This document shows, one piece after another, positions 3,050 through 19,283 of a stretch of 64,000 bases of DNA. A program made the translations under genes and the position numbers. Source of the DNA: Cytophagales bacterium (lineage in GTDB: Bacteria; Bacteroidota; Bacteroidia; Cytophagales; Cyclobacteriaceae); assembly GCA_020403045.1 (NCBI GenBank), contig JADBYK010000006.1, positions 1 to 64,000 of the forward strand, read 5' to 3'. A model generated the notes under the pieces. That model did not search any database, was not told the origin of the DNA, and saw nothing but the letters and a program-made list of their open reading frames with translations. The stretch's first letter is position 1. Each line of letters opens with the position of its first letter.

Positions 3050-3120
3050 GGTGACCACTTTTGCTTGCTTACAATTAGGCGATTATGATTATCGCAAAGC
3101 TGCGAAAAAAAGTGGTCGCC
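3050..3120. repeat. Inverted repeat resembling IS21-type insertion-sequence ends
   Basis: GGTGACCACTTTT begins at 3050, and AAAAGTGGTCGCC ends at 3120 in inverted orientation, one mismatch apart, with about 37 bases between. The sequence resembles the terminal repeats of IS21-family elements, but no transposase is present. It may be a scar or a solo pair of ends. The rest of 2872-3257 shows no gene or other clear structure. Confidence 0.4.
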
Positions 3121-3257
3121 CTGGACGGAATCTCCAGCCCTAGACGGGGTCGATCAAAAGAAGCGGATGCTTAAATGAAAAAAGATTTGATTTGTGATGA
3201 GTTATTTAAACCCTCCATGGATTAACAATAAAGAATATGTTGCGGCTGAAATTAGTT

Positions 3258-3524: not shown

Positions 3525-3534
3525 GGAATAATTG

Positions 3535-3888
3535 TCAATCCATCACGAACCATTGTGTGAAGTCATTCGCAATATCCTTTTTTGCCATTGTTAGCCTTTT
3601 GGTTTGTGAATCACCTTTCTTTTTGTTTCCTTCCATGAGTTTGTCCATTAATGATTTACCGTATTTTTTTTGGCATCAATCACCAAACGTCCATTCCGAT
3701 GAATCAAATTTGTTTTGGATGCCCATTAGTTCGTTTTGTTCTTCTTTAACTAAGTTCTCTTCATGCAAGATAATTTTGCTTTTGACGCGTGTTTTCTTAC
3801 TGGCCATCTGCTTGGTAACTCGGCTCTTTTTATTCTTCCTCAAATGCTTTGCCCATGAGGATTTCACCAATCGTTTAAAATTCTCCAT
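3535..3888 (-). pseudogene. Small basic protein gene interrupted by one in-frame TGA
   Basis: From an ATG at 3886-3888 the frame encodes a Lys-rich polypeptide beginning MENFKRLVKSSWAKHLRKNK and reaching SSEWTFGD, then a TGA at 3676-3678. In the same frame, without any indel, the sequence continues CQKKYGKSLMDKLMEGNKKK to a TGA at 3535-3537. Composition and codon use do not change across the stop, which suggests one gene of about 117 codons broken by a nonsense mutation. Alternatively, the 3' part is a separate 37-residue ORF starting at 3648. The upstream frame is open to 3996, but those residues look like untranslated leader. No function recognised. Confidence 0.45.
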
Positions 3889-4254
3889 TGTTATACCTTC
3901 AAGCCATAAAATAGTAGACAGCACTATAATGAAATTACCCTTCATTTTTAATCTCGCGGGAATTTCTCGGGAAATTAAAAATTTTTTTTTGTGCAATTGA
4001 GTAAACGAATAAAATGCAATACTGTTCGGTTCTACATTTAGAATTTGTAGATAACGCTCTTTTTATAAGACGAATCAATTAGCCCCAGCTGGAGACTATA
4101 TTCATACTTTCAAGGGCAGTTGACATTCCGGTCGATGATGGTAGGAATATCGGGTGAACTTTCCAGATAGGGTTTGAGTTTCCGAAGTGGAATAAAATAA
4201 GGCATCATAGCAATTAAGGCGACTAGTAAACTGATCCACCGACTAGTCAACGCA

Positions 4255-4836
4255 TTAAGATACCAAACAATCAAAATCTGTATTTTCAGCCATCAGCATA
4301 CCGTATTTTCTAAAATGGTAGATAACAAAGAATAGATCTTCAACGGAAGCTACACTAATACCTATAGAAAGATCTGATTGGTTCAAAGCAGTGAGAACTG
4401 TTGAATAACTAGCAGTCAACTTTACGTAGTGATCCAAAACGCTTATAACAGAATATATCTTAGCGATCTTCTTAGTTGTACGCAGTTTGAATTTATATGC
4501 TAAAAATCTACTGCGGTGCTTGGAGGACATCTCCCGACCGTATTTCAAGGCAGCCTTAATTTCGTCAATCAAAAAAATTGATGGATCGAGCACCGTTTTA
4601 AATTCATCTTCAACCTGCAACAGATAAAATTTCGTGCGTCCAGAGATCGCCAGCATTCTATTAAAATTTTCGGGTAAGTCTATTACTTTCAATAGTTCTG
4701 TGCTTATGTTACCGTGGTCCGAAGCCGCTCTTTCTTGAAAATTATTCCTTATTTCAACTCGGTAGAACTTTTTAAAAATAAACCGGCTATCGTACAATTG
4801 ATGAGTTGCAGTAATGAGCGTTTTAGTAATTCTCAT
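4255..4836 (-). CDS. Hypothetical protein of the integrase island
   Basis: A 193-residue protein I do not recognise. It is helical and basic in the middle (about residues 95-125, with SKHRSRFLAYKFKLRTTKK). It has no signal peptide, no obvious membrane segment and no cysteine motif. It sits 67 bases downstream of the tyrosine integrase on the same strand and probably shares its transcript. A weak coding-like frame continues past its end in another register down to a TGA at 4110, so the gene may have lost a longer C-terminus by frameshift. That is only a possibility. Confidence 0.5.
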   Translation of the reverse strand: MRITKTLITATHQLYDSRFIFKKFYRVEIRNNFQERAASDHGNISTELLKVIDLPENFNRMLAISGRTKFYLLQVEDEFKTVLDPSIFLIDEIKAALKYGREMSSKHRSRFLAYKFKLRTTKKIAKIYSVISVLDHYVKLTASYSTVLTALNQSDLSIGISVASVEDLFFVIYHFRKYGMLMAENTDFDCLVS

Positions 4837-4903
4837 TTTAAGACATTAGAACAAATTTGCAAAAAGCTAAGCCTTAGTAAAATTCCACATTCAGGATAGC
4901 TTG

Positions 4904-6106
4904 TCAAAATCTTTTCATCTTCTTGAAATAATTCCTGTCGATTGCTTTTTGAGCATAAACCATAGTGGTCTCCATGGAAGAGTGACGAAGTGTTTTTTGA
5001 ATAAATTCAAGCGGAACTTTTTTATCGTACATTATTTGTCCTGACGTGTGCCTAAGGCTATGAGGTGAATATTTCCCAGGCTTATTCAGCAAGCCTAATT
5101 CTCGAAATTTATCTTTGATTACCTGGTCAATTTCTGTTTTTGAAATTCCCGGAAATGTCTTTCCTTTTGAAATTGAATTCAGTTTGAGGTATGCCTTCGT
5201 TTCTGCGATTGGTACTGAGAAGAATCGGATAAGATCCTTAGACCTACTAGATTTACCTTTGCCCCAAACAGCAATCTTTCTATCCTTGAACAAACAGTCA
5301 GAGACATTAAGTCTGGTGATTTCAACGGTTCTCAGTCCATTCCATGCCATAAGGGAAATTATAGCTCTTTCACGTTGGTTTTTGCAAATACGAAGCAGTC
5401 GATCACGTTGCTTTTCTGTAAGGCTTTCCTTGTGATATTTTTTTAGTTGGCTCCTCGAAGACCGGACTTTCACTGCAGAAATCTGGCGAAGTGACTGTGT
5501 ACTGATCAATAATAGACCTTTCTTAACAACTTTTTGCTCTTTGGACAGTTCTTTATCAGAAAAGCCTTGATAAAGGATGGCCCAGTCACAAAAGGTTTTC
5601 AAGACGGATTTATAAAGTCTCTTTGTATAATCGGATAGGGAAGGGGAGAGCACAAACTTCTCAGCGGCTCTCTTATTGAACCTGCTAAGATCAGACTCAA
5701 TACTATTGAAAAATTGGTTTAGAATTGTTGCATAGGTTGCCAGCGACAGATCCCCGCGAAGACGGTCTTGCCTATCGGCCAGAAAGATTTTAACGTAGAT
5801 ATTCGAAATCGGAAGCTTTTTTTCGTTTAGGTCATTTATCAAGTATTCAACCCCTCTTTCTTCAAGGAATCTCCTAAATCGCCTAAGGAAAGATTGTATG
5901 GTTAGGCTACATCCATTTAGATACGTTTCCAATTGGGATATAACCGTTCCTCCTTCCTTATAGGTTTTCAGAAACGTTTTCGCATTGGTCAGATAAGTTC
6001 CAGCTTTTCCATACTGCTTATGCAGCCAGTATTCGTAGTCTAATAGAACTTGAGAGGCTAGGGGAGTAGCCCTCCTTATTTGATTCGACCGCCTGATGAG
6101 GTTCAA
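4904..6106 (-). CDS. Tyrosine recombinase/integrase (XerC/D family)
   Basis: A 400-residue site-specific DNA recombinase. Residues about 15-200 form the SAM-like core-binding region. The catalytic domain covers about 225-395. The active-site set is complete: Arg259 in GLRTVEI, a lysine in the GKGKSS beta-hairpin (283 or 285), His349 and Arg352 in HSLRHT, His375 in LRHSSMETT and the nucleophile Tyr384 in TMVYAQ. The frame opens with TTG at 6106 and has no nearby in-frame ATG, so the start is approximate. It lies in an AT-rich accessory region and is divergent from the small gene at 6224. It may have inserted the island or a smaller cassette, but I could not find att repeats. Confidence 0.9.
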   Translation of the reverse strand: MNLIRRSNQIRRATPLASQVLLDYEYWLHKQYGKAGTYLTNAKTFLKTYKEGGTVISQLETYLNGCSLTIQSFLRRFRRFLEERGVEYLINDLNEKKLPISNIYVKIFLADRQDRLRGDLSLATYATILNQFFNSIESDLSRFNKRAAEKFVLSPSLSDYTKRLYKSVLKTFCDWAILYQGFSDKELSKEQKVVKKGLLLISTQSLRQISAVKVRSSRSQLKKYHKESLTEKQRDRLLRICKNQRERAIISLMAWNGLRTVEITRLNVSDCLFKDRKIAVWGKGKSSRSKDLIRFFSVPIAETKAYLKLNSISKGKTFPGISKTEIDQVIKDKFRELGLLNKPGKYSPHSLRHTSGQIMYDKKVPLEFIQKTLRHSSMETTMVYAQKAIDRNYFKKMKRF

Positions 6107-6155
6107 AATAGTTCAACTACATGGTGAGGAAGAAAATTACAAAATTAATTTGATT

Positions 6156-6220
6156 ACTAAAATATATAAACATATATTTATTTAATGATAACAATTAATA
6201 TATTTATATACTAAAATATA
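6156..6220. promoter_or_regulatory. AT-rich divergent promoter region with direct repeats
   Basis: ACTAAAATATA occurs at 6156-6166 and again at 6210-6220, 54 bases apart, in an AT-only stretch containing inverted ATATAAACATATATTT. The segment separates the integrase (minus) from the gene at 6224 (plus). It may hold both promoters, protein-binding repeats or a recombination site; the sequence does not decide. Confidence 0.35.
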
Positions 6221-6223
6221 GAT

Positions 6224-6463
6224 ATGAAAACGTTGCGAAAAAACATTGACTTATCGAATGAAACTATTGCGATTCTTCAAATAGAAGCAACCTTAAGCAG
6301 CTTCGGATCTCTCAAACCCTTTTTGGAGAAAATAGTGAATGATTTTGCTGCCAAAAGCAGCAAAGGGAGGCCAGAGGTTTATAGTAAGGTTTTGTCAACA
6401 AAGAAATCGAATCTATCCCATAAGAAATTATTTGGTGGAAAGCGGAAGAAATTGAAAGGTTGA
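6224..6463 (+). CDS. Small basic protein, possibly ribbon-helix-helix type
   Basis: A 79-residue protein. The first part (MKTLRKNIDLSNETIAILQI) has the pattern of a beta strand followed by a helix, as in ribbon-helix-helix DNA-binding antitoxins. A helix follows (LKPFLEKIVNDFAAK), and then a very basic tail ending KRKKLKG. No toxin partner is adjacent. It may regulate its own AT-rich promoter region shared with the integrase. Assignment to that fold is inference from a short sequence. Confidence 0.5.
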   Translation: MKTLRKNIDLSNETIAILQIEATLSSFGSLKPFLEKIVNDFAAKSSKGRPEVYSKVLSTKKSNLSHKKLFGGKRKKLKG

Positions 6464-6613
6464 TTTTGTCAAAAACACAACGCATTAAAACAAATACTGT
6501 CGAAATTGACTAACGAATACAGATTTTTAGAGTGCGTTGAATACCATTACAAAGTGGCTTATGAAAATTCTAGAATATATAAATTAGATACTCTATTGAC
6601 ACGAAACGCTCAA

Positions 6614-6647
6614 GGTTGTATAATTACACAAGTGTAAACGCTTACAC
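6614..6647 (+). promoter_or_regulatory. Operator-like cluster upstream of the broken small gene
   Basis: GGTTGTATAATTAC at 6614-6627 carries the GGTTGTAT half-site also found at 7469 and, inverted or degenerate, at 7142-7161. It is followed by TTACAC-AA-GTGTAA and the overlapping GTGTAA-ACGC-TTACAC (6632-6647). The latter is a perfect dyad ending one base before the ATG at 6649. The nearby XRE gene at 6874-7107 is the likely binder. Confidence 0.5.
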
Positions 6648-6648
6648 C

Positions 6649-6887
6649 ATGAAAAGTGAGTTACACGAACACAGGTCGATCTCTGTATTGAACGAGGTCT
6701 CAAATCTGGAGAATGGCGGATTTTTTCATGGTTGGTATAGAGAACCATTTATAATGATCTAGGTGGCCATATCACCGAGGCATATGCTCTTATTGAGATT
6801 TCCAACGGAATCGTAAAATTCATCTACCCAACTGACCTAAGGTTCACCCAGCCTGATATGACAAAAGAAAAGGCTATTTCAGTTTAG
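6649..6887 (+). pseudogene. Frameshifted copy of the small protein at 7496-7723
   Basis: Starting at ATG 6649 the frame gives a protein containing GGFFHGWYREPF, matching DGFFHGWCKEPF of the intact gene at 7496. It then hits a stop at 6760-6762. Shifting the frame by one base near 6743 restores similarity (NDLGGHITEAYALIEISNG against NEDGPFITKTYALVELSNG) up to TAG 6885-6887. A single T lost from a TTTT run explains it. The 3' end overlaps the convergent XRE gene by 14 bases. A recently broken paralogue or a sequencing error are both possible. Confidence 0.7.
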
Positions 6888-7107
6888 TCACGAATTCCTC
6901 TAGCGGAACATCTAGGATAAGCGATATCCTAAATAGCGTATATACGTTTGGAACTTTCTTTCCATTTTCAATATCAGAGAGAGCATGCCTATCAATTGAG
7001 TCTTCTTTTGCCTCAAAGTGCTTTAGGCTTATACCCTTGTTAAGTCTTAGTGTCCGGATCCGCTGTCCCAGCGCTTTTGCAAAGGACTTCCTTGATTTGA
7101 TCGCCAT
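6874..7107 (-). CDS. XRE-family helix-turn-helix regulator
   Basis: A 77-residue protein made almost entirely of one Cro/C1-type helix-turn-helix. LGQRIRTLRLNKGISLKHFE forms the first helices, ALSDIENGKKVPNVYTLFRI is the recognition-helix region with the typical D-I-E-N-G-K motif, and LDVPLEEFV closes the domain. There is no extra ligand or peptidase domain. The GGTT-N12-AACC dyad at 7142-7161 lies 35 bases upstream of its start. Similar half-sites precede both copies of the small gene at 6649 and 7496. It therefore probably represses itself and its neighbours. Confidence 0.8.
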   Translation of the reverse strand: MAIKSRKSFAKALGQRIRTLRLNKGISLKHFEAKEDSIDRHALSDIENGKKVPNVYTLFRISLILDVPLEEFVTKLK

Positions 7108-7141
7108 TTAATGACAATCAAAGAATTTAAACAGAACAAAA

Positions 7142-7161
7142 GGTTAGATAATTGTATAACC
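7142..7161. promoter_or_regulatory. GGTT-N12-AACC dyad, candidate operator of the XRE gene
   Basis: The sequence GGTTAGATAATTGTATAACC pairs at 8 of 10 positions about its centre. It lies 35 bases upstream of the minus-strand XRE start at 7107. It shares the GGTTRTAT-type half-site with 6614 and 7469. Confidence 0.5.
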
Positions 7162-7468
7162 AATATATAAGTCTATTAGAAATTGTTGGGCTGGTATCCA
7201 AGGCGACAGAAATAGAAAGAAGATTTGGATTACATTGTTCCTTGGTGCAATTCAAATTGCAATAGGAGGGAGGAGCACAAAAATGAAAAGTCGTTTAGAG
7301 TAGGTTTAATAATCTGCTTTTGTCTAAATCGCAACTTCTATGAACGAACCATAAGAAAGAAACTGGAATAAAAACATATTTCTTCGTCCAAAAATGTCCC
7401 ATAGAATCAAAATATATCCGCATACTTTTCTGTGACTTGTGCTGAAACAGTTTCATTTTTATAAAAAG

Positions 7469-7488
7469 GGTTGTATCTTTATATAACC
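7469..7488. promoter_or_regulatory. GGTT-N12-AACC dyad, candidate operator of the small gene
   Basis: The sequence GGTTGTATCTTTATATAACC is a dyad with one mismatched pair and a CTTT centre, ending 8 bases before the ATG at 7496. It covers TATCTTTA, a plausible -7 box, so a bound repressor would block transcription. Confidence 0.5.
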
Positions 7489-7495
7489 TAATTTA

Positions 7496-7723
7496 ATGAG
7501 AATGAAAAATTCAGAAAACGAATTACGGCAGGTCTTGGTAAAGCAGGGTAAAATCAACGATGGCTTTTTTCATGGATGGTGCAAGGAACCATTTTACAAC
7601 GAGGATGGCCCATTTATAACTAAAACCTATGCGTTGGTTGAACTCTCAAATGGTGCTGTTGAGCTCTTTGAGCCGTCCATCATTAGGTTTAAAAATCCAT
7701 ACAGGGCAAAGTTTGCTGATTAA
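7496..7723 (+). CDS. Small conserved protein, intact member of a duplicated pair
   Basis: A 75-residue acidic protein without signal peptide. After a short charged helix it reads DGFFHGWCKEPF, then YALVELSNGAVELFEPSIIRF, which looks like a small beta-barrel fold (short strands, Gly/Asn turns). A second, frameshifted copy lies at 6649-6887 in the same orientation with an XRE gene between them. Two in-frame ATGs (7496 and 7502) are possible starts. I know of no function for this family. The shared GGTTRTAT operators suggest co-regulation by the XRE protein at 6874-7107. Confidence 0.6.
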   Translation: MRMKNSENELRQVLVKQGKINDGFFHGWCKEPFYNEDGPFITKTYALVELSNGAVELFEPSIIRFKNPYRAKFAD

Positions 7724-7828
7724 TCAAAGACCGTCAAAGTTCTCTTCTTACCGCAGAAAAAGTTAGAATTCATTTACTTCAATTAATCAGATGCGACTAT
7801 ACAATGAGCCACTAAAAAGTCTGCTTGA

Positions 7829-8173
7829 TCATCTCGTTGAGGCTTTAATTATTTGTATAGTTCTTAACACATCCATAAAAACAAGTTCTTTCTGATGCTC
7901 GGGTAAATCGTACATAGCAAAAGCAATTCGTTCTATTCTATTATCGGCTAAATGCTTTGGTGAATTATTTTTGTACCCTAGAAATTCGTTTGGTGTTACC
8001 CCTAGGGCATCCCAAATTTTGATACATTCATCCAGCCCCAAATTCTTTTTTTTGCCCTGTTGAATTTTATAAAAGACTTCTCTACTAACTCCAATATTCT
8101 TGGCAATATCATCTACACTAATTCCCCTACGGATTAGTTCTTCCTTTATTCTACTTCCATAGTTCACTGTCAT
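7829..8173 (-). CDS. XRE-family helix-turn-helix regulator
   Basis: A protein of about 114 residues beginning MTVNYGSRIKEELI. The helix-turn-helix covers roughly residues 8-62, with VDDIAKNIGVSREVFYKIQQ as the turn and recognition helix. The C-terminal part (residues 65-114) has a helical EHQKELVFMDVLRTI segment, perhaps for dimerisation. The frame is open upstream to 8236. I prefer the ATG at 8173 because the region above it is filled with palindromic TCCAA/TTGGA half-sites that look like operator rather than coding sequence. Probably autoregulated. Confidence 0.75.
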   Translation of the reverse strand: MTVNYGSRIKEELIRRGISVDDIAKNIGVSREVFYKIQQGKKKNLGLDECIKIWDALGVTPNEFLGYKNNSPKHLADNRIERIAFAMYDLPEHQKELVFMDVLRTIQIIKASTR

Positions 8174-8176
8174 AAT

Positions 8177-8256
8177 TATCCACAAATTGGATATTTTGTC
8201 CAATAATGCCGATATAAAATTAGCTATTTTATCCAAATATTGGCTGTTTAAGCCAA
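8177..8256. promoter_or_regulatory. Array of TCCAA/TTGGA half-sites, candidate autoregulatory operator
   Basis: Three dyads follow each other. TATCC-N7-GGATA spans 8177-8193. ATTGGA-N7-TCCAAT at 8186-8204 overlaps it and shares a half-site. TTGGCT-N5-AGCCAA spans 8240-8256. A further CCAA-ATA-TTGG overlaps the third. The array begins 4 bases upstream of the preferred start of the minus-strand XRE gene. Confidence 0.55.
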
Positions 8257-8498
8257 ATATGATTTAAAAATGGAAATAATTTTTTAAATCGAACTCGGTT
8301 GGTGCAAATCATCTTGCCTCTGGGAGTTCACAACGTCCCCCTTAAAACCACACCCCAAAAAACATTAGTAGTTAATAACATTGACATGATTTTCGAATCA
8401 TGACCGTGTTAATTTTTAGCGTTTTTAGAAGCAAGAATAATTGCAGAATTATTAAGCGGTTTGATATAAAATTATTTCAAAACAAATTTCGAATTCAT

Positions 8499-8975
8499 AT
8501 GCTCCAACAAACCAAATCATTCTCATTAGAAGTCAATCTTCCATGCTGCGTTGTTCCGGTTGAGCTATTCAATCATTTTGAAGGGGTAGTGAAGAAATCA
8601 CTTGAACGAAAATTTACAATTCCAAATTATGCCATCAACTTAAGAGAACATTACTCTTTGGGTATTGATTATCCTGCCCATCAGATCAAGCAGCTAATCG
8701 GCGCAGACAAAAATTGGAAAATTAACTTTCAGACCACACTCGAGCTAAAAATCTCTAAGCAAACACTTCTTGATCAATATTGCGAATCTCGAATAAAATC
8801 TTTCTTGCACTCTAAACAAAAAGTATTTATCGATGCCTACAATTATATCTCCGTCTATTATGCCATTGAAAAGATTCTTATTGAATTGGGCACTGCTCAT
8901 CTGATAAGATCGATAGATATGTTACGACTATCACCTTTAAAAGCTGCTAATTCTCAAGACGACGATCCTAATTAG
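8499..8975 (+). CDS. Hypothetical protein upstream of the transposition operon
   Basis: About 158 residues from the ATG at 8499 (MLQQTKSFSLEVNLPCCVVP). The frame is open to an earlier ATG at 8400, but the extra 33 residues are AT-rich leader-like. I see no known domain. There is a mixed beta N-terminus, a central stretch with NYAINLREHYSLGIDYPAHQ, and a helical C-terminus (FIDAYNYISVYYAIEKILIE). It lies 219 bases before the DDE transposase on the same strand and may belong to the same mobile element. Function unknown. Confidence 0.5.
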   Translation: MLQQTKSFSLEVNLPCCVVPVELFNHFEGVVKKSLERKFTIPNYAINLREHYSLGIDYPAHQIKQLIGADKNWKINFQTTLELKISKQTLLDQYCESRIKSFLHSKQKVFIDAYNYISVYYAIEKILIELGTAHLIRSIDMLRLSPLKAANSQDDDPN

Positions 8976-9194
8976 AAAGTTTCAAAAAAGATCCTGATAA
9001 CAACAGATTTTTTGGAATCAAAACTATACATACAGAGGTTTTAAAGATTTATGTTTTGTTTTATTCCGTGTAAAGCAGACTAGGTTAGCGTGCCTTTCAG
9101 TAGGGATGAATCGGTCAGACCCCCTTAGAATTTGCTTCTCTACTTTTGAAATCCAACACCTCACGGCGTCTAACACAAACAATCAAAAATCGAA

Positions 9195-10706
9195 ATGGAA
9201 CGAGTCGAAACACAAGCGAATCCATCAAGGTGTATCAGCAAACACTATCTAATAAAGCGTCCTATTTCGCTTCACCAAGCCCATGACTTTAGACACCCCA
9301 CCATCGTAAAACCGGCAATGGATTTTTCAGGCGTCAAATATGTGCTAAAAAAAGAAGTCCTTAAAAAGGTCCCTTACAGTTCGTACCGCAACGGAGTTTC
9401 TTTGCATGACAGGGGAGAATCAACTCGATGGGCACGCGACTACTTTGATGGATACGAGTACTTGTTATGGGATTCATTGACCCCATATATACAAGGGAAA
9501 ATCGGAAATATCCATGCACTGCTTGAAGAGAGCATCTCGACAAAAAAAAGTACAGACCCTGATGAACTCCAGACTCAACTAGAAACACGACTTGAATTCG
9601 CATTTAACCAGAAAAAAGTCTATGAACAATTTGGTGGACTGTATAGAGACCGGTATTTCTACCCTGGTGAGATCGAGGTTTACTGCAGGATGCACTCCTT
9701 TGTGGTAGAGATTCTTTCTTTGAAGGAGATTGGTCACGACCTTAAGACGGTCTACGCGGCATTTGATCGCGTAAAGAATCGCATCCCTTTGTATAATTTC
9801 AGAGTCAGCTCATACGAATATTTTTCCGAAAAATTGCTCTACCTCGAGGAGATCGGATTAGAAAAGGGAATAGTACATGGAAACCGTAACATGGAAAAGA
9901 TCAACAAACTGCTCAATGACTATGTTAAGAAGCAGGTAATCAAATTTTATTGTCAAAACAAACCATGCCTGAAGTATTCCGAAATAACTGAAAAAGTAAA
10001 TAATGAAATTTCAAAGAGAGGTTTCATCACTATCAGTCTTTCGCTTGTTAAATTATTTCTTAGAGACCCAGAAATTCAAAACTTGTATAAACCATTCCGT
10101 TTGGGAAAAGATTGGGTTACTAAATACTACGATCCCTTTCAAGCTCGTCTCCACCCTCAGAATGTACACGACAAATGGGAGATGGACGGAACAGTTCTCC
10201 CTTACTACTTTATCCTCGACAGTAAGATAACCCGTGTTTGGTACATCATTATTGTTGACGTGAATTCTCGAAAAATTATTTCATGGGCCGTTGGACTCAA
10301 TGAGTCGCGCTACCTGATTTTGGAATGCTATAGAATTGCAATCACCTCCTGCAAAGTTCTTCCTGTTGAGTTGGTTCGAGACAATGCAGGCGGTTATGAT
10401 ACTAAGGAGGTATTGGAACTTGAAACCAAGTTGGAAGATTTGAAATGCTTCATTAGACCAGCGAGACCGAAAAATTCAAAGGACAAAGGAACGGTAGAGA
10501 AAGTGCATGACATTCTGAATTGCGATCACTTCAGCAAGGACTTTGAACACTTTATCGGAGATCCGTGGAATGCCGAGCGAGAGTTGTACAGAAAGAGCTC
10601 CGTTGAAATACGTGAAATGAGAAAAGTAAAAAATGCCTACCCTGCAAGCGAAGCTCCACGAATTATGGAAAGCATAGTGAGTAGCTATAACAATAGAGTA
10701 TTTTAA
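9195..10706 (+). CDS. Mu/TnsB-type DDE transposase, N-terminal and catalytic part (ends at in-frame TAA)
   Basis: A 503-residue transposase that would cut and join transposon ends. Residues about 130-310 contain the DNA-binding helical domains. The RNase-H-like catalytic core follows, with the triad Asp331 (EMDGT), Asp396 (VRDNAGG) and Glu435 (KGTVEKVHD). The chain ends YNNRVF at a TAA (10704-10706). This falls inside the conserved segment that in related enzymes reads YNxR-x(n)-SPxExF. The missing second half of that segment (GFSPNERF) opens the next ORF in the same reading frame. The full-length protein would have about 744 residues. The gene is therefore either interrupted by a nonsense mutation or read through. 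It is followed by a MuB/TnsC-like ATPase, the usual partner. Confidence 0.85.
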   Translation: MERVETQANPSRCISKHYLIKRPISLHQAHDFRHPTIVKPAMDFSGVKYVLKKEVLKKVPYSSYRNGVSLHDRGESTRWARDYFDGYEYLLWDSLTPYIQGKIGNIHALLEESISTKKSTDPDELQTQLETRLEFAFNQKKVYEQFGGLYRDRYFYPGEIEVYCRMHSFVVEILSLKEIGHDLKTVYAAFDRVKNRIPLYNFRVSSYEYFSEKLLYLEEIGLEKGIVHGNRNMEKINKLLNDYVKKQVIKFYCQNKPCLKYSEITEKVNNEISKRGFITISLSLVKLFLRDPEIQNLYKPFRLGKDWVTKYYDPFQARLHPQNVHDKWEMDGTVLPYYFILDSKITRVWYIIIVDVNSRKIISWAVGLNESRYLILECYRIAITSCKVLPVELVRDNAGGYDTKEVLELETKLEDLKCFIRPARPKNSKDKGTVEKVHDILNCDHFSKDFEHFIGDPWNAERELYRKSSVEIREMRKVKNAYPASEAPRIMESIVSSYNNRVF

Positions 10707-10715
10707 ATTATTGAT

Positions 10716-11429
10716 ATGAGAAATTTAAGCGACAAAGGTTTTTCTCCAAACGAAAGGTTCTCAAGAGGCTCGACAAAGAATGCAATCCAACTTACCAATG
10801 GTGACGTCATCAGAGTTGTTGCTGACTATGATAAAATGATTAAAGTCTTAAATATCATGATCCGAATCCAAGACCAGAAAAACTGCGACCGTATAATGTT
10901 TTTTACACTCGACAAGGTTTTGGCTGCCAAATTCAATCGAGAGTGGGTGAGGGTCCGTATGATCACGAAGAAACCGGATCACATCTATCTTTTTGAGTCG
11001 AAGACCGACACCTATGTTGGATGCGTTGCGCGCGACCTTGAGCCTGCGGGCGACCTTGCGAGCAAAACAGCAGCTGACTGGAAGAGTCACCAAGATTTTC
11101 ACGAAATGAAAAAGGAACACGAACGGTATCGTCAAGAAAAGTACAATAAAGTTATGGACGGGATTGATCAAGTAAATGCCGTGATCGACAAAGCAGCCTT
11201 ACCGCCTGAGACATCAGAAACCGGAGGACTGATAATACCCGAGGAAGAGAAACGATTAGAAGCCGAAAGCCAAGAAGAATGCGGGGGAGGAGTTACCGTG
11301 CCAGAGGAAGAAACCAAGTCCGAATCAGCTTCAGCAACTGAACAATGCTTCGAAGGAGACTTGGAGGTCGTTTATGTTGAAACACTAACCGACTCCGAAG
11401 TTGATTACGAAGAGTTGGAAATTGCTTAA
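10716..11429 (+). CDS. C-terminal part of the Mu/TnsB-type transposase (same frame, after the stop)
   Basis: A 237-residue ORF in phase with the preceding transposase and separated from it by the TAA plus three codons. It begins with GFSPNERF, the downstream half of the transposase segment in which the stop falls. Residues about 35-110 (VRVRMITKKPDHIYLFESKT, then YVGCVARDLEP) match the beta-barrel C-terminal domain of Mu-type transposases. Residues 120-150 are a charged helix and the last 80 are Glu-rich and disordered, a plausible site for contacting the ATPase. An ATG at 10716 could allow independent translation as a separate subunit. Whether it is a relic, a subunit or the result of read-through cannot be settled here. 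Confidence 0.65.
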   Translation: MRNLSDKGFSPNERFSRGSTKNAIQLTNGDVIRVVADYDKMIKVLNIMIRIQDQKNCDRIMFFTLDKVLAAKFNREWVRVRMITKKPDHIYLFESKTDTYVGCVARDLEPAGDLASKTAADWKSHQDFHEMKKEHERYRQEKYNKVMDGIDQVNAVIDKAALPPETSETGGLIIPEEEKRLEAESQEECGGGVTVPEEETKSESASATEQCFEGDLEVVYVETLTDSEVDYEELEIA

Positions 11430-11451
11430 TACACACTAACAAAATACCATT

Positions 11452-12171
11452 ATGAAAAAAATAACAATTAAAGATTGGGTGATTCTAAAGACTGAGAATT
11501 ACAACATTATTACGGAGAAATTGAACAAAGCCCACACTTATGCATTACTCACTTTTATAATTGGCTTTCCTGGTGCCGGTAAAACAACCACATTTAGGAA
11601 CTATAGAACGAGCCAACAAGGAAAAGAAGTTGTATACATTTGCCTGGATGTAAGTTTCAACGCAAAAGACTTCTACGTGGCGCTCTTGAGAGAACTAGGA
11701 GTTCCAGACTATGGGTATGATGTTCCAATAAAATTTCTGGCCACAAAGATTACAGAAACAATCAAGGAGAGGGGAGAACCAGTGCTTATTATTATCGATG
11801 ATGCGGGACGTTTCACGGCTAAGATGATGGAATGGTTTCAACTTATTTATGATTCTGAAAACTGCGGGCTCGTACTTTCTGGCACGAAAAAATTCAAAGA
11901 CGATTTTGAGGGCTGGGTGAAACAAAATCGCCTAGGCGTTCCAGAACTGGGATCTCGTATCGATGAGTGGGTAATTTTAAAAGAGCCAACGAAAGAAGAG
12001 ATGCAAAAAGTTGCGCAAAAAAATGGCGTGTCTGATTCTACAGTGATGGGTAAGTTGCTCAATGAATGCAAAGACTATAGGCGTCTAACTAAAAAGATCA
12101 TCGAGCTGAGAATTAATCAAGTTAATAATGCCAAACGAGCGAAAGAAGAACAAGGAGTTTCTGCTGAATAG
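11452..12171 (+). CDS. MuB/TnsC-like AAA+ ATPase
   Basis: A 239-residue ATPase expected to bind target DNA and activate the adjacent transposase. The Walker A motif GFPGAGKTT is at residues 38-46, Walker B VLIIIDDAG at 111-119, and a sensor-1-like VLSGTKKF at about 141-148. The C-terminal portion (residues 180-225) is helical and basic. The gene lies 22 bases after the transposase C-terminal ORF, on the same strand, and 12 bases before the recombinase-like gene, so the four ORFs look like one operon. The size fits compact MuB-type regulators rather than longer Tn7 TnsC. Confidence 0.85.
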   Translation: MKKITIKDWVILKTENYNIITEKLNKAHTYALLTFIIGFPGAGKTTTFRNYRTSQQGKEVVYICLDVSFNAKDFYVALLRELGVPDYGYDVPIKFLATKITETIKERGEPVLIIIDDAGRFTAKMMEWFQLIYDSENCGLVLSGTKKFKDDFEGWVKQNRLGVPELGSRIDEWVILKEPTKEEMQKVAQKNGVSDSTVMGKLLNECKDYRRLTKKIIELRINQVNNAKRAKEEQGVSAE

Positions 12172-12183
12172 AACAAGTTTTTT

Positions 12184-13371
12184 ATGACAACAGATAATGT
12201 ATATGTGATGCTTCCGAGGCTTAAGACATTTCGGTTACTAGTAAAGTCAGCCTTAGAAATCAGCAGCAACAAGATAAAAGTTAAGACTGATCAGCAGATT
12301 CTTACAAGTAATTTTCAGCCGAAATATTATTTTTCTAAAACAGAACTAAAAAAATTCGATCATTTGCCCTCCAAACTAGCTAAAATGGTAACTGAGGCGG
12401 ATGTCGACACAACTAGTATTAATACTAAAAAACTGAGAGACCGATTCGGAAAAGGCGAGTGGCGAGGACAAACTCCATTCGGACACAAAAAACATTTAGA
12501 TGGCTCAATGCGGCCTTGTCACAAAATATTTATAGTCTCCTTTGTCTTCAATACTTTTATTCAAACAAGATCCCTTCTTGTGACTCGTAAAGCATTAGCA
12601 TCTTTTGGTGTTGATTTAATTGAAAACAGGATACTTCATTTATTGCAGAATGGTGTCTATTGTGGAGTGATGACTCACGGCTTCGAGAAATTGAATTTAG
12701 AAAAGATATTTAAACCAGTAGTATCAGAAGCATTGTTTGATTCTGTTCAGAGTATCCTAGCTTCTAATCGAAAGAGTCGAAAAGATAGGCTTTCACTAGT
12801 TACCATGCTTCCACTTCGAGGCTTTGTTATTGATGCCGATTCGGGTATCGGTTTAACAGGTAACGGTCATAGTGCTAATCTATTCTACAGAGTAAATTTC
12901 GGAAGAAGAATGAAAGGAAGGCCATTTCAAATCAAAGCAAGCACATTGGAACCTGTTTTCAAAGAGCATCTTAATACACATTTTTCTGGACGAAATGATG
13001 ATGCAAAGTTGTTCTTTCATCAGTGTCATGAATCGTTGAGACTAGTGACGTTGCGATTTACTGAAAAATTGAAGAAGGAGTCGAGCAGATCGTTGGAGGC
13101 TACGGAATCTGAATCAAATAGACATGGATTTTTTGACCCGCATACAACTAGGCTTCACATGATTCGAGAGCAACTCGAGCATTTAACATACTTTCAAGAT
13201 AGGGAGAAGTTTATTGAATACGGTGTCGAACTTATGAACGACATAGGGAATACTTGGGAGAATGCAGATTATGAAGCCAAAAGAATACTGCAGCTTCTTG
13301 TCTTCTCAAATGGCATTTTATTCAACAATGACCGAAAGGAATTTGTCAATGAATTGGGCATTATTTTTTGA
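12184..13371 (+). CDS. Serine-recombinase C-terminal-like protein lacking the catalytic domain
   Basis: A 395-residue protein. From about residue 88 (GKGEWRGQTPFGHKKHLDGS) onward it follows the 'recombinase' DNA-binding domain of large serine recombinases. ILHLLQNGVYCGVMTH is the usual ILxNPxYCG segment, and FKPVVSEALFDSVQSIL the EPLIS-LF segment. WENADYEAKRILQLLVFSNG is the conserved C-terminal helix. The N-terminal resolvase domain with its catalytic serine is absent; the first 85 residues are unrelated. In the zinc-ribbon region the expected cysteine pairs are replaced (GFVIDADSGIGLTGNG). It should not recombine DNA by itself. Position 12 bases after a MuB/TnsC-like ATPase suggests a DNA-recognition role in transposition, analogous to TnsD/TniQ. 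That role is inference. Confidence 0.6.
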   Translation: MTTDNVYVMLPRLKTFRLLVKSALEISSNKIKVKTDQQILTSNFQPKYYFSKTELKKFDHLPSKLAKMVTEADVDTTSINTKKLRDRFGKGEWRGQTPFGHKKHLDGSMRPCHKIFIVSFVFNTFIQTRSLLVTRKALASFGVDLIENRILHLLQNGVYCGVMTHGFEKLNLEKIFKPVVSEALFDSVQSILASNRKSRKDRLSLVTMLPLRGFVIDADSGIGLTGNGHSANLFYRVNFGRRMKGRPFQIKASTLEPVFKEHLNTHFSGRNDDAKLFFHQCHESLRLVTLRFTEKLKKESSRSLEATESESNRHGFFDPHTTRLHMIREQLEHLTYFQDREKFIEYGVELMNDIGNTWENADYEAKRILQLLVFSNGILFNNDRKEFVNELGIIF

Positions 13372-13874
13372 TATCAGCTATAGCTCTGACTTATTGCGTT
13401 GCCTTTGATCTCAAGCATCGTATCTTGATTTCGGTACAGTACGAAAAATCATCCAAATCAGGCTTTTTTCAGCTACCGGCTTTCTCTTCATAAACTTTAG
13501 GAAGTAATACCGATTTTTGTACCGATGTTTTTGACGGTAAGCAGCTTTGCTGTTGATTTAACGGCTGTTTTGATAAAATTCCGGAAAATTGAATAACCTT
13601 AGTCTGGAAACTAGATTGACTTAAACAAACATAATATGCTTATATAACTGTGCGTCAGCCCCGATAGCAATCGGGGTTAGCAAGGCAAAAGTTATATAAT
13701 TTATATTATGTTAAATAAAATGAACCTAACTCTGACTATTGGCCTACTCCGTCCAAAGAAACCTTTTTACACTTCAAATATCGGGTTTAATAACAACCTC
13801 GCTTCCACCTGCGCTTCTCGCAAACAAAAATCAAATCATTATCTTTGTGATCAAAAAGAGATCACACGTGGCGT
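13372..13874. other. Right flank of the transposition operon, gene-free
   Basis: The first 250 bases contain related AT-rich motifs, among them TACCGATTTTTG, TACCGATGTTTTTGACGG, GCTGTTGATTTAACGG and CGGCTGTTTTGATAAAAT (13500-13580). They could be transposase-binding repeats at an element end, but I found no matching inverted set on the left. A nested palindrome at 13629-13711 is listed separately. TATCTTTG at 13840-13847 resembles a -7 box for the hydroxylase gene. Confidence 0.4.
13629..13711. repeat. Nested palindromic element, about 83 bases
   Basis: The outer arms, near-perfect over about 20 bases, are 13629-13649 (containing ATAATATG and TTATATAACT) and 13690-13711 (AGTTATATAA then TATTATGT). 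Inside lies a GC-rich hairpin, CCCCGAT (13659-13665) and ATCGGGG (13670-13676) with loop AGCA. This resembles a small non-autonomous element or a folded recombination site; it does not match the integron attC consensus. Confidence 0.5.
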
Positions 13875-14498
13875 ATGAAGAACTTCGTTTCTAATTCAAC
13901 TGAATCAACCCGCATGTTCAAAAGCGGATTTTTAGAGATTTTTTCAAAGGTGCATTTCTCGGTGCCCTTGTTTATCTACATCCCAACAATCGCATTCTTC
14001 GGTTGGAAGGGCTTCTCTGTTAAAGATGTGTCTGCCGTAGAGATCATTCTTTCGATTACAGCCGGCTTACTCTTCTGGACGTTGACTGAATACGTACTGC
14101 ATCGGTTCGTTTTCCACTACATGCCCAAGTCAAAGTGGGGCCAGCGGTTGCACTTTATATTCCATGGTGTACACCATGATTACCCTAACGATGCACTGCG
14201 CCTAGTGTTGCCCCCCTCGGTGAGTGTTCCATTGGCGGTGCTTTTTTACTTCCTGCTTAGCCTGGTGATACCAGTCCCATACCTCCCCACTTTTTTTGCT
14301 TCATTCCTTACGGGCTATTTGTGTTACGACATGTTTCACTATGCCTTCCATCACGGCAATTTCTCCAATCCTATTTTAAAGAAGCTGAAGCAGCACCACA
14401 TGCTTCACCACTATACCGACTCCGACCACGGATATGGTGTTACGTCTGTCCTGTGGGACGTTGTCTTCAGGTCTGAGATCAAAAAGACAAATCAGTAG
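13875..14498 (+). CDS. Fatty acid hydroxylase / sterol desaturase superfamily membrane protein
   Basis: A 207-residue integral membrane di-iron oxygenase, probably a fatty-acid 2-hydroxylase type enzyme. Four hydrophobic segments (about residues 28-45, 56-75, 112-135 and 138-155) surround the histidine clusters that bind iron: HRFVFH (76-81), HGVHHDYP (97-104), HYAFHH (155-160) and HHMLHH (174-179). The cluster order and spacing match the Scs7/FA2H group, and its length matches bacterial members without the cytochrome b5 domain. It is the first core gene to the right of the mobile region and is convergent with the deacetylase gene 6 bases away. The substrate is not determined. Confidence 0.85.
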   Translation: MKNFVSNSTESTRMFKSGFLEIFSKVHFSVPLFIYIPTIAFFGWKGFSVKDVSAVEIILSITAGLLFWTLTEYVLHRFVFHYMPKSKWGQRLHFIFHGVHHDYPNDALRLVLPPSVSVPLAVLFYFLLSLVIPVPYLPTFFASFLTGYLCYDMFHYAFHHGNFSNPILKKLKQHHMLHHYTDSDHGYGVTSVLWDVVFRSEIKKTNQ

Positions 14499-14503
14499 TT
14501 CTG

Positions 14504-15406
14504 TCAGAAGAAAATTTCTTGTGCCAACCGGTAGGTATTGGCATGCGCTTCAATAATGTCCTTAAAATTGGGCGAATACCCACCACCCATGCTAACAACC
14601 AGGGGGATTCCACCTTCTTTTGCGGCCTCCAAAACGATACGATCTCTCTCTTTGCACCCTTCCCTACTCACACTCAACTTCCCTAATTTATCAGTCTCCA
14701 AAATATCCACACCCGACTGAAAGAAAATGAAATCAGGATTAACCTGTTTCAGGAGATTGGCAAGGTTGACTCGTAGCGTATTCAAATAAAACGCATCGCT
14801 TGTAAAATCGGCTAACCCAATATCTAAGTCAGATCGCTCCTTGTGTAGCGGGTAGTTGTTCTGGCCATGCATACTGAACGTAAAGACTCTTGGATCGTGT
14901 TGAAATACCTGAGCCGTTCCATTGCCCTGATGCACGTCCAGGTCAACCACCAATATTTGTTTGGCTAATCCCTCGTCTAATAGATGGCGAGCCGCGATGG
15001 CGATATCATTCAAAAGACAGAACCCCTCTCCTTTGTAAGTAAACGCATGGTGCGTGCCGCCAGCAATGTTCATCGCTACACCATGTTGCAACGCAAAAAG
15101 TGAACACTGAATGGTTCCATTTGCTATGGTAATCTCTCGCGTCACCAACTCCCTGGTGAGTGGAAATCCAATCCGTCTGATTTCTGCTGGCTCAAGTGCC
15201 AATTGCTCTAGCCGATTCCAATAGTCCACATCATGCACAGCCAGAATGCGGTTGCGCTCTAGTGGCTGCGGTACAAAAAAGTTTTCTTCACGAAGAGTTC
15301 CTTCATGAAGTAGTTGCAGCGGCAGCACTTCATACTTGCTCATCGGAAACCGGTGATTGGGCGGCAGTGGCAACACATACGATTCTGCCCAGGCAACTTT
15401 CAGCAT
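14504..15406 (-). CDS. Histone deacetylase family protein (acetoin-utilisation / HDAC-like)
   Basis: A 300-residue zinc-dependent deacetylase. The start is placed at the ATG at 15406 (MLKVAWAESYVLPLPPNHRF), which matches the family N-terminus. A longer TTG-started frame to 15427 would run into the upstream terminator. The conserved features are HH at 119-120 (GTHHAF), the DLDVHQGNGT motif with zinc ligands Asp155, Asp157/His159, and the later GVDILETDKLG and MGGGYSP. Substrates of bacterial members vary (acetylated lysine, polyamines, acetoin-related), and none is indicated by the neighbours. Preceded by a rho-independent terminator, so it needs its own promoter. Confidence 0.85.
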   Translation of the reverse strand: MLKVAWAESYVLPLPPNHRFPMSKYEVLPLQLLHEGTLREENFFVPQPLERNRILAVHDVDYWNRLEQLALEPAEIRRIGFPLTRELVTREITIANGTIQCSLFALQHGVAMNIAGGTHHAFTYKGEGFCLLNDIAIAARHLLDEGLAKQILVVDLDVHQGNGTAQVFQHDPRVFTFSMHGQNNYPLHKERSDLDIGLADFTSDAFYLNTLRVNLANLLKQVNPDFIFFQSGVDILETDKLGKLSVSREGCKERDRIVLEAAKEGGIPLVVSMGGGYSPNFKDIIEAHANTYRLAQEIFF

Positions 15407-15419
15407 ATCGTGTTTTCTA

Positions 15420-15450
15420 AAAAACAAAAACGGGTTGAAAAATCAACCCG
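15420..15450 (-). terminator. Rho-independent terminator downstream of the lipoprotein gene
   Basis: On the minus strand CGGGTTGA and TCAACCCG form a perfect 8-base stem (15431-15450) with a TTTT loop, followed by TTTTTGTTTTTT. It ends transcription of the gene at 15476-15931 and lies immediately before the deacetylase start. Confidence 0.8.
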
Positions 15451-15475
15451 CTCCTGGTTTTTATAGGTATTTATC

Positions 15476-15931
15476 TCAATGCTTTTCGTGTTCGTGCTTA
15501 TCCCCTCCTCCGTGCCATGCTTCCATGATAGAGTGAAAGCTGTCATGGAGTGCATTTAAGGATGAGCCAATAACGGCATCATCAGCACCACTCTTTATAA
15601 GGTCGGCCAATGCCCTTGTGTCTGTCTTTAATTTTTGTAAGTCCTCCTTTACAGCATCGGTGTTTACTTTTTCGGGCAATTCAGCGACCGCCCATTTCTC
15701 AGCTTCGGTAGCCATCTCTTCTGCCAATTTTTTGGCAGGCGCTAAATTGGTGGAGTCTTTATAGGGGTGGAAAGCTTCCGCCATAATCATATGAAAAGAG
15801 TCCATCTCTTTCCATTCCCCTGAATCGGAGGAAGCTGATTCAGTCGTTTCCGTGGTTTCTGTCTTAGAAGTGCAACCTAGAAGGCCGCAAAAAATCAAAA
15901 CTAAAAGGTAGGATAGCTTACTAATTTTCAT
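15476..15931 (-). CDS. Small lipoprotein, unknown function
   Basis: A protein of about 151 residues starting at the ATG at 15931. The signal peptide MKISKLSYLLVLIFCGLLGC ends in a lipobox (LLGC), so it is a lipoprotein. The mature part begins with a Thr/Ser/Glu-rich linker. It is then helical, with a His/Met-containing region (DSFHMIMAEAFHPYKD) and a partly repeated segment near the end (LHDSFHSIMEAWHGGG). The tail is KHEHEKH. The arrangement of His residues on helices recalls four-helix metal-binding or cytochrome-like proteins, but I do not assign one. Monocistronic, with its own terminator. Confidence 0.65.
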   Translation of the reverse strand: MKISKLSYLLVLIFCGLLGCTSKTETTETTESASSDSGEWKEMDSFHMIMAEAFHPYKDSTNLAPAKKLAEEMATEAEKWAVAELPEKVNTDAVKEDLQKLKTDTRALADLIKSGADDAVIGSSLNALHDSFHSIMEAWHGGGDKHEHEKH

Positions 15932-16000
15932 AGTTGGTTTTTTTTCAAAGATAACAGGCAACACGCAATTGGCAATGTGAATAAAACTAAAAAAATCATC

Positions 16001-19000
16001 TCATCCTTTGCCTTTGTACTTTCTGCGCATCTTGAGACTGTGAATGGCCTTCTTCAGTAAATCAAAATACAGCGTAATAAAAAGAAAAATGGTCATTGCC
16101 CAGATAACGGCTACGTTGAAATAGAGCGTGTCATATTTCTTACCCATAAAAAGCTTCGTAGGCACATAAAAGTTTTCTCTAAAATCAAATTGATTGGCGG
16201 GGCGATGATCGTCAAAGTAGATGGGATATATTTTTTGAACTAACTCTCCCTTCCACGATGCAATGCGCACAATGGCATTGGTGTTTTCTACTGAATTGGT
16301 GACTGCCTGATTTTGGAATCTCATTTTTAATTCGTCAAACGCTGCTTTTTTTTCAGGCGTATTAGTCAATTCCATCACTAGCCTCTCTTTTTCTGCAGTT
16401 GCATTTCGATTGCGAATGCGATAGTACTCCTTTAAGGTTCCGAGAAAAAGGCGTACTTTTTCATACATGACAGAGTCAAACTTGCCGATTGCAATTTGCT
16501 CGACATCGGGAAACCTTTCACGACCAATTGAATTTAACTCAGCCTTTATCTCATTTCGCAATAAGTCCATTGCCTGACCTGTAGTATTTGTTGAGCTGGA
16601 GCTTCGCCACTCACTGGGGTGGTTGACAATATGAGCCAACTGCGATTCGAGTTGAGGTAGATAGTAAATTCGTTTATAGTCGGCTATGGCGCGTTTTTGA
16701 TCCAGCTGATAAAACTGTTTCTCGTAGGGGTTGTCTTTAAACTGCGTCACCATGTACGCTTCAAAAGCCCAACGCGATGCCATCAGCTCACCTACTATGG
16801 GTATTCCGTTGGGGGAACCGACTTTTGGATTAAACTTGTCAAAGCTAATAACCACACCACTCAGCAACAGCTGCGGAATGATCAATATGGGAATGATGAT
16901 ATAGATTGTCACAGCCGAATCGAAGGCAGAAGAGATATTCAAACCGAGCATATTGGCAAAGCATGAGCACGAGAACAAGATCATCCAGTAGCGAATTTCA
17001 CTAAAGGGTATTTCGAGCAACCAATTGCCAACGAGTATAAAAGTAAATGTCTGAACACCCGATAACACAAACAAGATGATCACTTTAGACGTCAGATAGC
17101 TGCCGTTGCTCAGGTGAAGGTATTTTTCTCGTTTTAGAATTTTTCGGTCATGGAAAATCTCCTCTGCACTGACAATCAATCCTACAAACAGTGCCACCAC
17201 AATGCTCATGAAAAAATAAACGGGAATATTGTCGTTGTTAAAAAACGTGTAAAAGGGATTCTCGACACCTACTGCTTCGTAATACTTCACAAAAAAACCG
17301 ATGAAAAGAGCCAAAGTCGGTGTCAGTAACAAGTTGAGGGTCACATACTGGCGGTTAGCCACTTTTGACAACACATCGCGAACAATAAAAACCCATAATT
17401 GCTTAAACCGGTTAGGAATCTTTTGTGTGACGGGTAACGGATCGTTCACTTCTTCTACTTTTGGAATCCGCATCTTTTGTTTAAAGTACTGATACCACTG
17501 CCCTGGAGATACTCTTCGGGTATGGGTAAACCGGCCGTATTCATTGACTACCCTTGTTTCAATAATGTTGAAAATTTGCTCTGGATTGATGTTTCCACAT
17601 TCCGGGCAAGCGCCAGGTGTTTTGTTTGCCGCATTGATGATGTCCTGGAAATAATTAACAGACTCGACCGGATTTCCGTAGTAAATTTGAAATCCACCTA
17701 CATCCAGAATGATCAACGTATCAAACATTTTAAAAATGTCAGAAGAAGGCTGGTGAATCACCACAAAAATCATTTTGCCCCTCAGCGAAAGTTCTTTGAG
17801 CAAATCCATGATATTCTCTGAGTCGCGTGAAGACAGGCCGGAGGTAGGTTCGTCTACAAACAAAATGGTTGGTTCTCTCAACAACTCCAAGCCTATATTC
17901 AATCGCTTTCGTTGTCCACCACTAATGGTTTTATCTAATGGAGAACCCACTTTCAAATTTCGAATCTCGGACAAGCCCAAGCTAAGCAGAACGCGCTCAA
18001 CTAACTCGGCATGTTGCTGGCGCGTGTAATGTCCAAAACAAAGACGGGCGCTGTAGTATAAATTTTCAAACACAGTAAGGTCTTCGATCAGTAAATCATC
18101 TTGTGGAATAAACCCGACAATTCCCTCCAATTTTTTTGAATGAGCGTGGATATCGTTCCCATTTATTAAAACCCTCCCACTCGAAGGTTTCTCTGATCCG
18201 TTCAACACATTGAGCAATGTCGATTTCCCCGAACCGCTCGCTCCCATCAACCCAATCAACTTGCCACCCGTTTCGGCAATATTAATATTTTGTAAACCCG
18301 CTCGTCCACTTTTGAAATGGTAAAACAAATGATCTGCGATAAAACTTATTTCATTATCGCTCTCCTCAAACAGAAATTTTCCAACTACATCGCTGTAATA
18401 GATTGGCTCAATTTTAGAACCGCGAATGGTGCTACCTGTGGGGAATACGTCAATTTTTCGACTCTTAAGTGAAACTCCATTCAGTGTCAGTGAAGTAATA
18501 CCAAGATACTTGATAAAATAAGTCTCCGTATCCTGAAGCCGAAGGATCGCGATCAATCCTGTAAGATTACGAGCGATGATACGAGGGCCGGGATAATTCA
18601 CTTCATCGGAACCCTCATCAATGACAAGGATATTTTTTGATGCCAGCTCATCAATGTCGTGGCCCAACACAAACGACCGCATAGCCCGGAAATCCTTTGG
18701 CGAAATCTTAAGCGCTTCACTGGTATAAAAAATCAAATTACTCTGACGCTCAGAAAGGTTTTCATCGGCAAAAACAAGCTCAATAATCTTGATGACCAAT
18801 ACGGCTTTTTGTTGGGTCGTGAGCGCTTGATTTACCTTTTTGGAAATCTGCATGATCTGAGCCCAATCATCGACAAATTCCTGTGTGGCTTCATCCAGAT
18901 TCTCCAGAGAGCCATTGGCCAATCTTTTATTGTCTTTGCAGAAATCATCAAAGAGAGACAGATAATAGCGAGTGCCATCCTGGTTCAAATGAAGCGACAA

Positions 19001-19096: not shown

Positions 19097-19122
19097 TGGT
19101 TAAAAGATAAACAGGTTTCTTG

Positions 19123-19259: not shown

Positions 19260-19283
19260 AGTCTCCATCCGGTACCAGTTGCT

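Follow-up and report, generated by a model that had tools for sequence, protein, structure and literature searches.

A 64,000-nucleotide window of the genome of a Cytophagales bacterium (assembly GCA_020403045.1, 4.0 megabases (Mb) in 124 contigs; contig JADBYK010000006.1, positions 1-64,000, forward strand) was found to carry a transposition operon beside dif, the site of chromosome dimer resolution, which is present once in most bacterial chromosomes. The operon occurs in one copy in this assembly. The element to which it belongs is probably a Mu/Tn7-superfamily transposon with insertion next to dif, best described as an ATPase-bearing "dif hunter" with a split transposase, and relatives at the same spot in other genomes suggest that the element aims for dif. 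An initial annotation of this DNA had proposed a Mu/Tn7-type transposition operon, which the present analysis supports, and made no mention of the dif site.

The site was located at 13689-13716 (+ strand) as the 28-mer AAGTTATATAATTTATATTATGTTAAAT. Seven dif-bearing genomes were compared: four carriers (the window's own genome; G291, the metagenome-assembled genome (MAG) Flammeovirgaceae UBA5008, with its operon at locus L019; G173, whose island is locus L079; and G235, locus L089) and three element-free genomes (G064, locus L092; G144; and G229, locus L090). The site was single-copy in all seven; its 23-base pair (bp) core, searched with at most two mismatches, was found once in each, the three without the element included, and the reversed pattern in none. 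The XerD arm of the window's dif (TTATGTTAAAT) was the same as that of the printed Acinetobacter baumannii dif. The GC skew was higher upstream than downstream of dif in six of the seven genomes, the exception being G173, with 1.9 kilobases (kb) upstream. Judged from these sequence features, 13689-13716 is the chromosomal dif.

Alignment of the right ends of the elements revealed a common motif, CYTRRACA, which in the window reads CTTAAACA at 13620-13627 (+ strand; 5'-TGTTTAAG on the other strand); an ACA right end was present in all four carrier genomes. The distance from this motif to the dif 28-mer was 61 bp in the window, 52 bp in G291, 56 bp in G173, and 57 bp in G235, and that from the stop of the last operon gene to dif was 317, 331, 125, and 182 bp, respectively. 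The window and G291 elements have their ends on the XerC side of dif; for the operons of G173 and G235 it is the XerD side. G235 has, in addition, a solitary window-type end, 54 bp from dif on the XerC side, with no operon behind it and beside a gene that by reading is ribonucleotide reductase-like. CYTRRACA occurs eight times in the 64-kb window, both strands counted, and is expected 0.008 times per 130-bp flank; it was present in none of the six dif flanks of the element-free genomes G064, G144, and G229. Consistent insertion near one sequence motif had been named in the initial annotation as favouring target choice; such a motif was found, and it is dif. It is very unlikely that the dif neighbourhood just tolerates many insertions and that the association is not targeting. 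By reading of the ORF (open reading frame) lists, no dif neighbour gene was recognised as common among the genomes viewed, and the dif region therefore seems fluid; however, tolerance alone would not readily account for a spacing of 52-61 bp that is seen on both sides of dif, in one lone end as well as in four operon ends whose transposases belong to three divergent lineages.

All four carriers also encode a related Xer-like tyrosine recombinase, which in the window lies at 4904-6106 (- strand) with R259, H349, R352, H375, and Y384 present, and whose closest solved structures include XerC-like, XerA, IntI4, XerD, and XerH. Its clade was found in 3 of 291 genomes of the order (E 1e-60; the window's own, G173, and G235) and in G291 (56% identity); a search of the class returned one of 159 genomes, the window's own, and the sole relative on viral contigs was 23% identical. 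In each of the four genomes having it, the recombinase relative lies on the dif-bearing contig, and in each a Mu-type transposase-ATPase operon points at dif. The gene order in G173 (turned round) is recombinase, cargo, helix-turn-helix (HTH) gene, 203-amino acid protein, transposase (692 amino acids), ATPase, and dif; that in G235 is recombinase, HTH gene, 206-amino acid protein, transposase (693 amino acids), ATPase, and dif. The G173 and G235 class A transposases, 35% identical to each other, were found in 2 of 321 genomes (E 1e-15), both of them carriers of the tyrosine recombinase. Sequence comparison thus places three divergent transposase lineages with one recombinase clade at one site.

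That recombinase raises the alternative that the island entered at dif by Xer- or integrase-type site-specific recombination, as an integrative mobile element exploiting Xer (IMEX) or an integrase island, with the Mu-type genes as passengers. The enzyme is Xer-like and, at 54-56% identity to the window's copy across the islands, better conserved than the transposases, and use of dif has been proposed for proviruses described in Bacteroidetes. Nevertheless, we regard such an entry as unlikely. No second dif-like site was detected towards the left side of the island in either the window or G173, and positions 1-20,000 of the window hold a single site with at most 8 of 28 mismatches to dif, not the dif-like borders on both sides by which an IMEX is recognised. 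No att-type direct repeat at the junctions of the window and G173 rose above shuffled controls (12 shuffles each), and the conserved end is not in the dif core but 52-61 bp away from dif. An inverted repeat of 14 bases, matching at all but one position (2512 and 13717), was slightly above the shuffled controls and was not found in G291. At 13626-13649 (- strand) lies a dif-like copy in inverted orientation, altered at four positions and with a shortened spacer, which shares two bases with the element end; in G064 and G229, near-perfect inverted copies, also with a shorter spacer, are located at 52 bp from dif, and none was found beside dif in G144, G291, G235, or G173.

The island was provisionally delimited at 2403-13627, the left limit being drawn from comparison with G064 and the right limit being the conserved end. 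In G064, the genes that flank the island (768-2402 and 13875-14498) adjoin each other; G064 is not a clean empty dif site because the island and dif are both extra at that place. Two hits to the left-end pattern TGTYYARG were rejected, as they had no matching duplication: the one at 2152 falls within a chromosomal gene, and the one at 8245 adjoins an HTH gene. Placing the G291 left border by the gene next to the G064 phosphoesterase was likewise abandoned: no clear G291 orthologue was found, the best being 37% identical.

Several observations weigh against insertion by a dif-directed transposon. The element is known from four genomes only, and CYTRRACA was defined on the very sequences in which it was counted; G235, moreover, has further ACA triplets at 15 and 44 bp. 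Transposons of the Mu/Tn7 superfamily have TGT...ACA ends with a 5-bp target duplication; a left end and a target duplication were looked for and not found, and the dif of G064 is on another contig than the joined flanking genes. By reading, the ATPases of G173 (L079 2006-2698) and G235 (L089 5251-5964) look defective in Walker A.

The operon consists of four ORFs on the + strand (9195-10706, 10716-11429, 11452-12171, and 12184-13371) with gaps of 9, 22, and 12 bases, confirming the same-strand arrangement with short gaps in the initial annotation. The start proposed there, 8499, proved to be an internal ATG of the ORF 8400-8975. The first gene of the operon encodes the N-terminal and catalytic part of a DDE transposase (503 amino acids; phrog_310, E 1e-26), in which the expected catalytic residues were located at D331, D396, and E435. 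The third (11452-12171; 239 amino acids) encodes a MuB/TnsC-like AAA+ ATPase (AAA_22, E 5.5e-20; phrog_296, E 2.4e-33) with Walker A (GFPGAGKTT) and Walker B-like (LIIIDD) motifs, as annotated before, and a weak match to TnsC of type V-K (E 4e-5). A DDE transposase with D, D, and E and an AAA+ target ATPase are both features of the Mu/Tn7 superfamily, to which the element probably belongs. A Pfam scan took in 14 island proteins of the window, short overlapping ORFs being left out, and no TnsA nuclease or TniQ-type selector domain, as carried by Tn7-like elements with TnsA and TnsD/TniQ, was detected among them; nor did the Pfam and PHROGs scans of island proteins name any structural phage gene at a good score. 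No relative of the ATPase, the transposase, or the product of the fourth gene was found on the viral contigs scanned, and the transposase had zero matches among phage records.

That the transposase is split, as had been claimed, was borne out by alignment to a profile of five unsplit relatives, whose closest solved structure is TnsB. The first ORF covers columns 10-470 of the profile (hhalign, E 5e-30), and residues 6-102 of the second ORF (10716-11429; 237 amino acids) cover columns 475-567 (hhalign, E 3.6e-5, probability 71%); the second gene therefore encodes the beta-barrel/C-terminal part of the transposase, a label that we take from MuA/TnsB anatomy. Its product had no match to the more distant G173 and G235 transposases. 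The split is kept in L019, as two ORFs in different frames, and in the near-identical locus L020, while the eight other transposases found (Emticicia, Pedobacter, G585, G845, G065, G033, G173, and G235) are single ORFs of 621-721 amino acids. Stop-codon read-through fusing the two ORFs, which the frame would allow in the window, was excluded because the two ORFs of L019 sit in different frames.

A scan of genome contigs for the operon returned two loci, L019 and L020. The four-gene order recurs in L019, at another locus, with an ATPase 93% and a fourth-gene product 83% identical to those of the window; comparison of the two copies indicates that this order is under purifying selection in a second genome (NG86 ratio of nonsynonymous to synonymous substitution (dN/dS) 0.07, 0.17, 0.09, and 0.24 for the four genes in order). 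L020, from the MAG Flavobacteriaceae RE-15aug16-5, is a 7443-bp contig 99.7% identical to 5309-12751 of the window that ends within the fourth gene; it may be a mis-binned contig or else reflect recent transfer. Identity between the window and L019 was approximately 66-89% in the conserved part of the transposase gene and 58-73% in the second gene, and 84-97% from about 11420 to 13220. The synonymous divergence (dS) was 1.8 and 1.7 for the first two genes versus 0.35 for the ATPase gene and 0.36 for the fourth gene, and the third-position contrast between the two pairs was marked (Fisher P 1e-24). The data indicate, on sequence divergence, that the ATPase gene and the fourth gene were swapped as a single block; adjacency alone could account for their joint exchange.

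More distant relatives were few. The window transposase had matches in 4 of 390 genomes of the order (E 1e-8) and 3 of 395 genomes of the phylum (E 1e-6), its own genome counted both times. The Emticicia plasmid pEMTOL01, the Pedobacter plasmid pA27BH1, and G585 (locus L072) carry an unsplit transposase, an ATPase, and a small serine recombinase; in G585, the ATPase ORF (L072 4196-4654) is just 152 amino acids long and looks cut short, and is followed by a small serine recombinase ORF of 210 amino acids. The G033, G065 (locus L069), and G845 loci look like Mu-type prophages, judged from their neighbour genes. In the fetched stretches of these six distant transposase-ATPase loci, the best dif-like match had 7-10 of 28 mismatches; the site with seven, in G065 (L069 19181, - strand), lies approximately 7 kb from the transposase.

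The fourth gene, 12184-13371, encodes a 395-amino acid relict of a large serine recombinase (Pfam Recombinase PF07508, 24.8 bits against a cut-off of 21.1; phrog_95 integrase, E 7e-14). A search of the order with this protein matched 14 of 291 genomes, its own included, at 16 other places with 20-32% identity; 15 of these were read, and the 10 longer than 480 amino acids were aligned. All 10 full-length large serine recombinases show the catalytic motif Y-x-RVS together with the first pair of zinc cysteines; both features are absent from the window and L019 relicts, whose first 84 residues had no alignment to a catalytic domain. The earlier description of a catalytically empty serine recombinase was thereby upheld and extends to the zinc-ribbon cysteines. 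The relict aligns with large serine recombinases across the recombinase domain and the C-terminal part. Neither the transposase nor the ATPase was found at the 16 relict-related loci (2.2-4.0 kb each, tblastn, E 1e-3), and plasmid records gave zero matches to the relict.

The relict could be what is left of a resolvase undergoing decay, retained only by chance at the position that a small serine recombinase occupies in G585. The G585 order of transposase, ATPase, and small serine recombinase is in keeping with this, as is the relict's dN/dS, the highest of the four genes, which makes it the least constrained by this ratio. However, the relict is stop-free in both copies, as were only 3 of 500 neutral simulations, and the 67 amino acid changes between the window and L019 compare with a neutral mean of 101 and a minimum of 88 (n = 500), which points to purifying selection on the relict. 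Small serine recombinases are without the recombinase domain and C-terminal part of the large ones, whereas the relict aligns over these very regions. We therefore consider a decaying resolvase improbable.

The initial annotation had proposed the fourth gene as the target-choice factor, and the relict would then be the selector that brings the element to dif, a serine-recombinase counterpart of TnsF or TnsD. In support of such a role, the relict is the last operon gene in both distinct copies, is under purifying selection, and was exchanged jointly with the ATPase gene as one block; in Tn6022, the selector role of an inactive tyrosine recombinase has been proven. On the other hand, the G173 and G235 elements lie at the same distance from dif and no relict relative was found in their islands, and the joint exchange may reflect adjacency alone. 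The zinc ligands of large serine recombinases belong to the domain that reads the attachment site, and in the relict they are gone. A selector role is improbable, and the relict is not a general dif-targeting factor because two of the four dif-adjacent elements are without it. The annotation had further held that absence of the gene from related transposase-ATPase loci would make the association accidental; no relict relative was found by tblastn in the fetched stretches of the six distant loci, which goes part of the way towards that refutation. With modest confidence, we predict that the relict may act as a branch-specific adaptor between the ATPase and DNA.

Other genes of the island were compared among the carriers. 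A 193-amino acid protein (4255-4836, - strand) is common, by sequence match, to the G173 island (51%). The HTH regulator at 7829-8236 (- strand; HTH_26, E 1e-9) is divergent from the transposition genes, and by reading an HTH-like gene takes the same place in L019, G173, and G235. Upstream of the transposase, 8400-8975 (+ strand) encodes a 191-amino acid protein without a Pfam family; in L019, G173, and G235 its place is taken by other, not clearly related proteins, also without a Pfam family. Window positions 6660-6880 appear, by reading of the sequence, to hold a broken second copy of the small gene 7496-7723, with a 33-bp repeat (82% identical). The G291 island or its surroundings (L019 173-5053; L024 6946-10526) contain TIR-TPR, caspase-like (by reading), and GAP1-N1 genes and a nucleosidase gene with a weak EAD1 match; these genes are possible defence cargo. 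Two genes of the G173 island (L079 7684-14467) are of the DNA polymerase III alpha type and the impB/mucB/samB family; genes next to them read like SRAP and ImuA, the ImuA-like one without a Pfam match. A polymerase gene of the G173 type also lies approximately 1.4 kb from dif in the element-free G064 (L092 5521-8736).

In the transposition mechanism that we propose for a dif-directed element, the two transposase proteins together would cut the TGT...ACA ends and the ATPase would assemble on the target DNA. A protein bound to dif, either host XerC/XerD or the element's own Xer-like recombinase, would mark the target and position the ATPase and the transposase; with the place marked by a protein on dif, insertion would fall some 50-60 bp away. 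Devoid of catalytic activity, the relict may have retained its ancestor's DNA-binding part and would serve in its own branch as an accessory ATPase-DNA adaptor, a recruitment of a dead recombinase for which TnsF is the precedent. Products of replicative transposition may also be resolved by the Xer-like recombinase or by XerCD at dif, a step proposed because the four dif islands yielded no small serine resolvase, the active form of which marks Tn5053/Tn552-type transposons (three queries, no tblastn hit at E 1; controls were found). Taken further, these elements would form a new group of dif hunters with an ATPase, in one branch a two-subunit transposase, an Xer-like recombinase that marks dif, and an emptied serine recombinase as an adaptor, the serine-type counterpart of TnsF; we put this forward tentatively, as a possibility on the unlikely side.

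How Mu/Tn7-type elements come to select a single site has yet to be answered, and the answer would be of practical use for inserting DNA; an ATPase-bearing element that keeps a constant spacing to dif is a natural case to set beside Tn7, Tn6022, and the "res hunters." Two parts of the system can be tested: the split of the transposase between catalytic domain and beta-barrel, and the relict under selection after loss of its active site. If recognition of dif runs via Xer proteins, chromosome dimer resolution and transposon targeting would be directly linked. Among the best-ranked matches in the open-licence literature, neither a dif-targeting transposon with an ATPase nor an inactive serine recombinase acting as a selector was found.

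Among known systems, the Bacteroides Mu-like phages (p00 group) have an ATPase 28% identical to that of the window, and their phage records are mostly 34-46 kb. The Emticicia, Pedobacter, and G585 loci resemble the window element in their homologous transposase and ATPase but differ in having an unsplit transposase, a small serine recombinase, and no relict; in their stretches (14-20 kb) the best dif-like match had 8-9 of 28 mismatches, which is chance level. The "res hunters" Tn5053/Tn402 have a transposase, an ATPase, an active small serine resolvase, and TniQ. They share with the window element a transposase, an ATPase, a serine-recombinase gene, and a recombination site as the target, whereas the window element has an empty relict of a large recombinase, a split transposase, and dif instead of res.

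TnsF of Tn6022 is a dead tyrosine recombinase that serves as a target selector, via TniQ, for insertion into comM (PMC10293859). The window element is like Tn6022 in having, next to Tn7-like transposition proteins, one that descends from a site-specific recombinase and has lost its activity, and unlike it in that the relict is of the serine type, the site is dif, and no TniQ domain was found in the island proteins scanned. The closest parallel in target is the IS1202 family, whose "dif site hunters" (ISAjo2 group) in Acinetobacter have a TnsB-like DDE transposase and TGT/ACA ends; they are elements of 1.5 kb with a single transposase of 441-457 amino acids, inserted 5 bp from the XerC arm of chromosomal dif or pdif (PMC10132070). 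As there described, the family has one unsplit transposase and no other transposition proteins. The window element resembles it in its TnsB-like DDE transposase, its ACA end, and a fixed short distance from dif, and differs from it in having two transposase genes, an ATPase, and an end 61 bp from dif.

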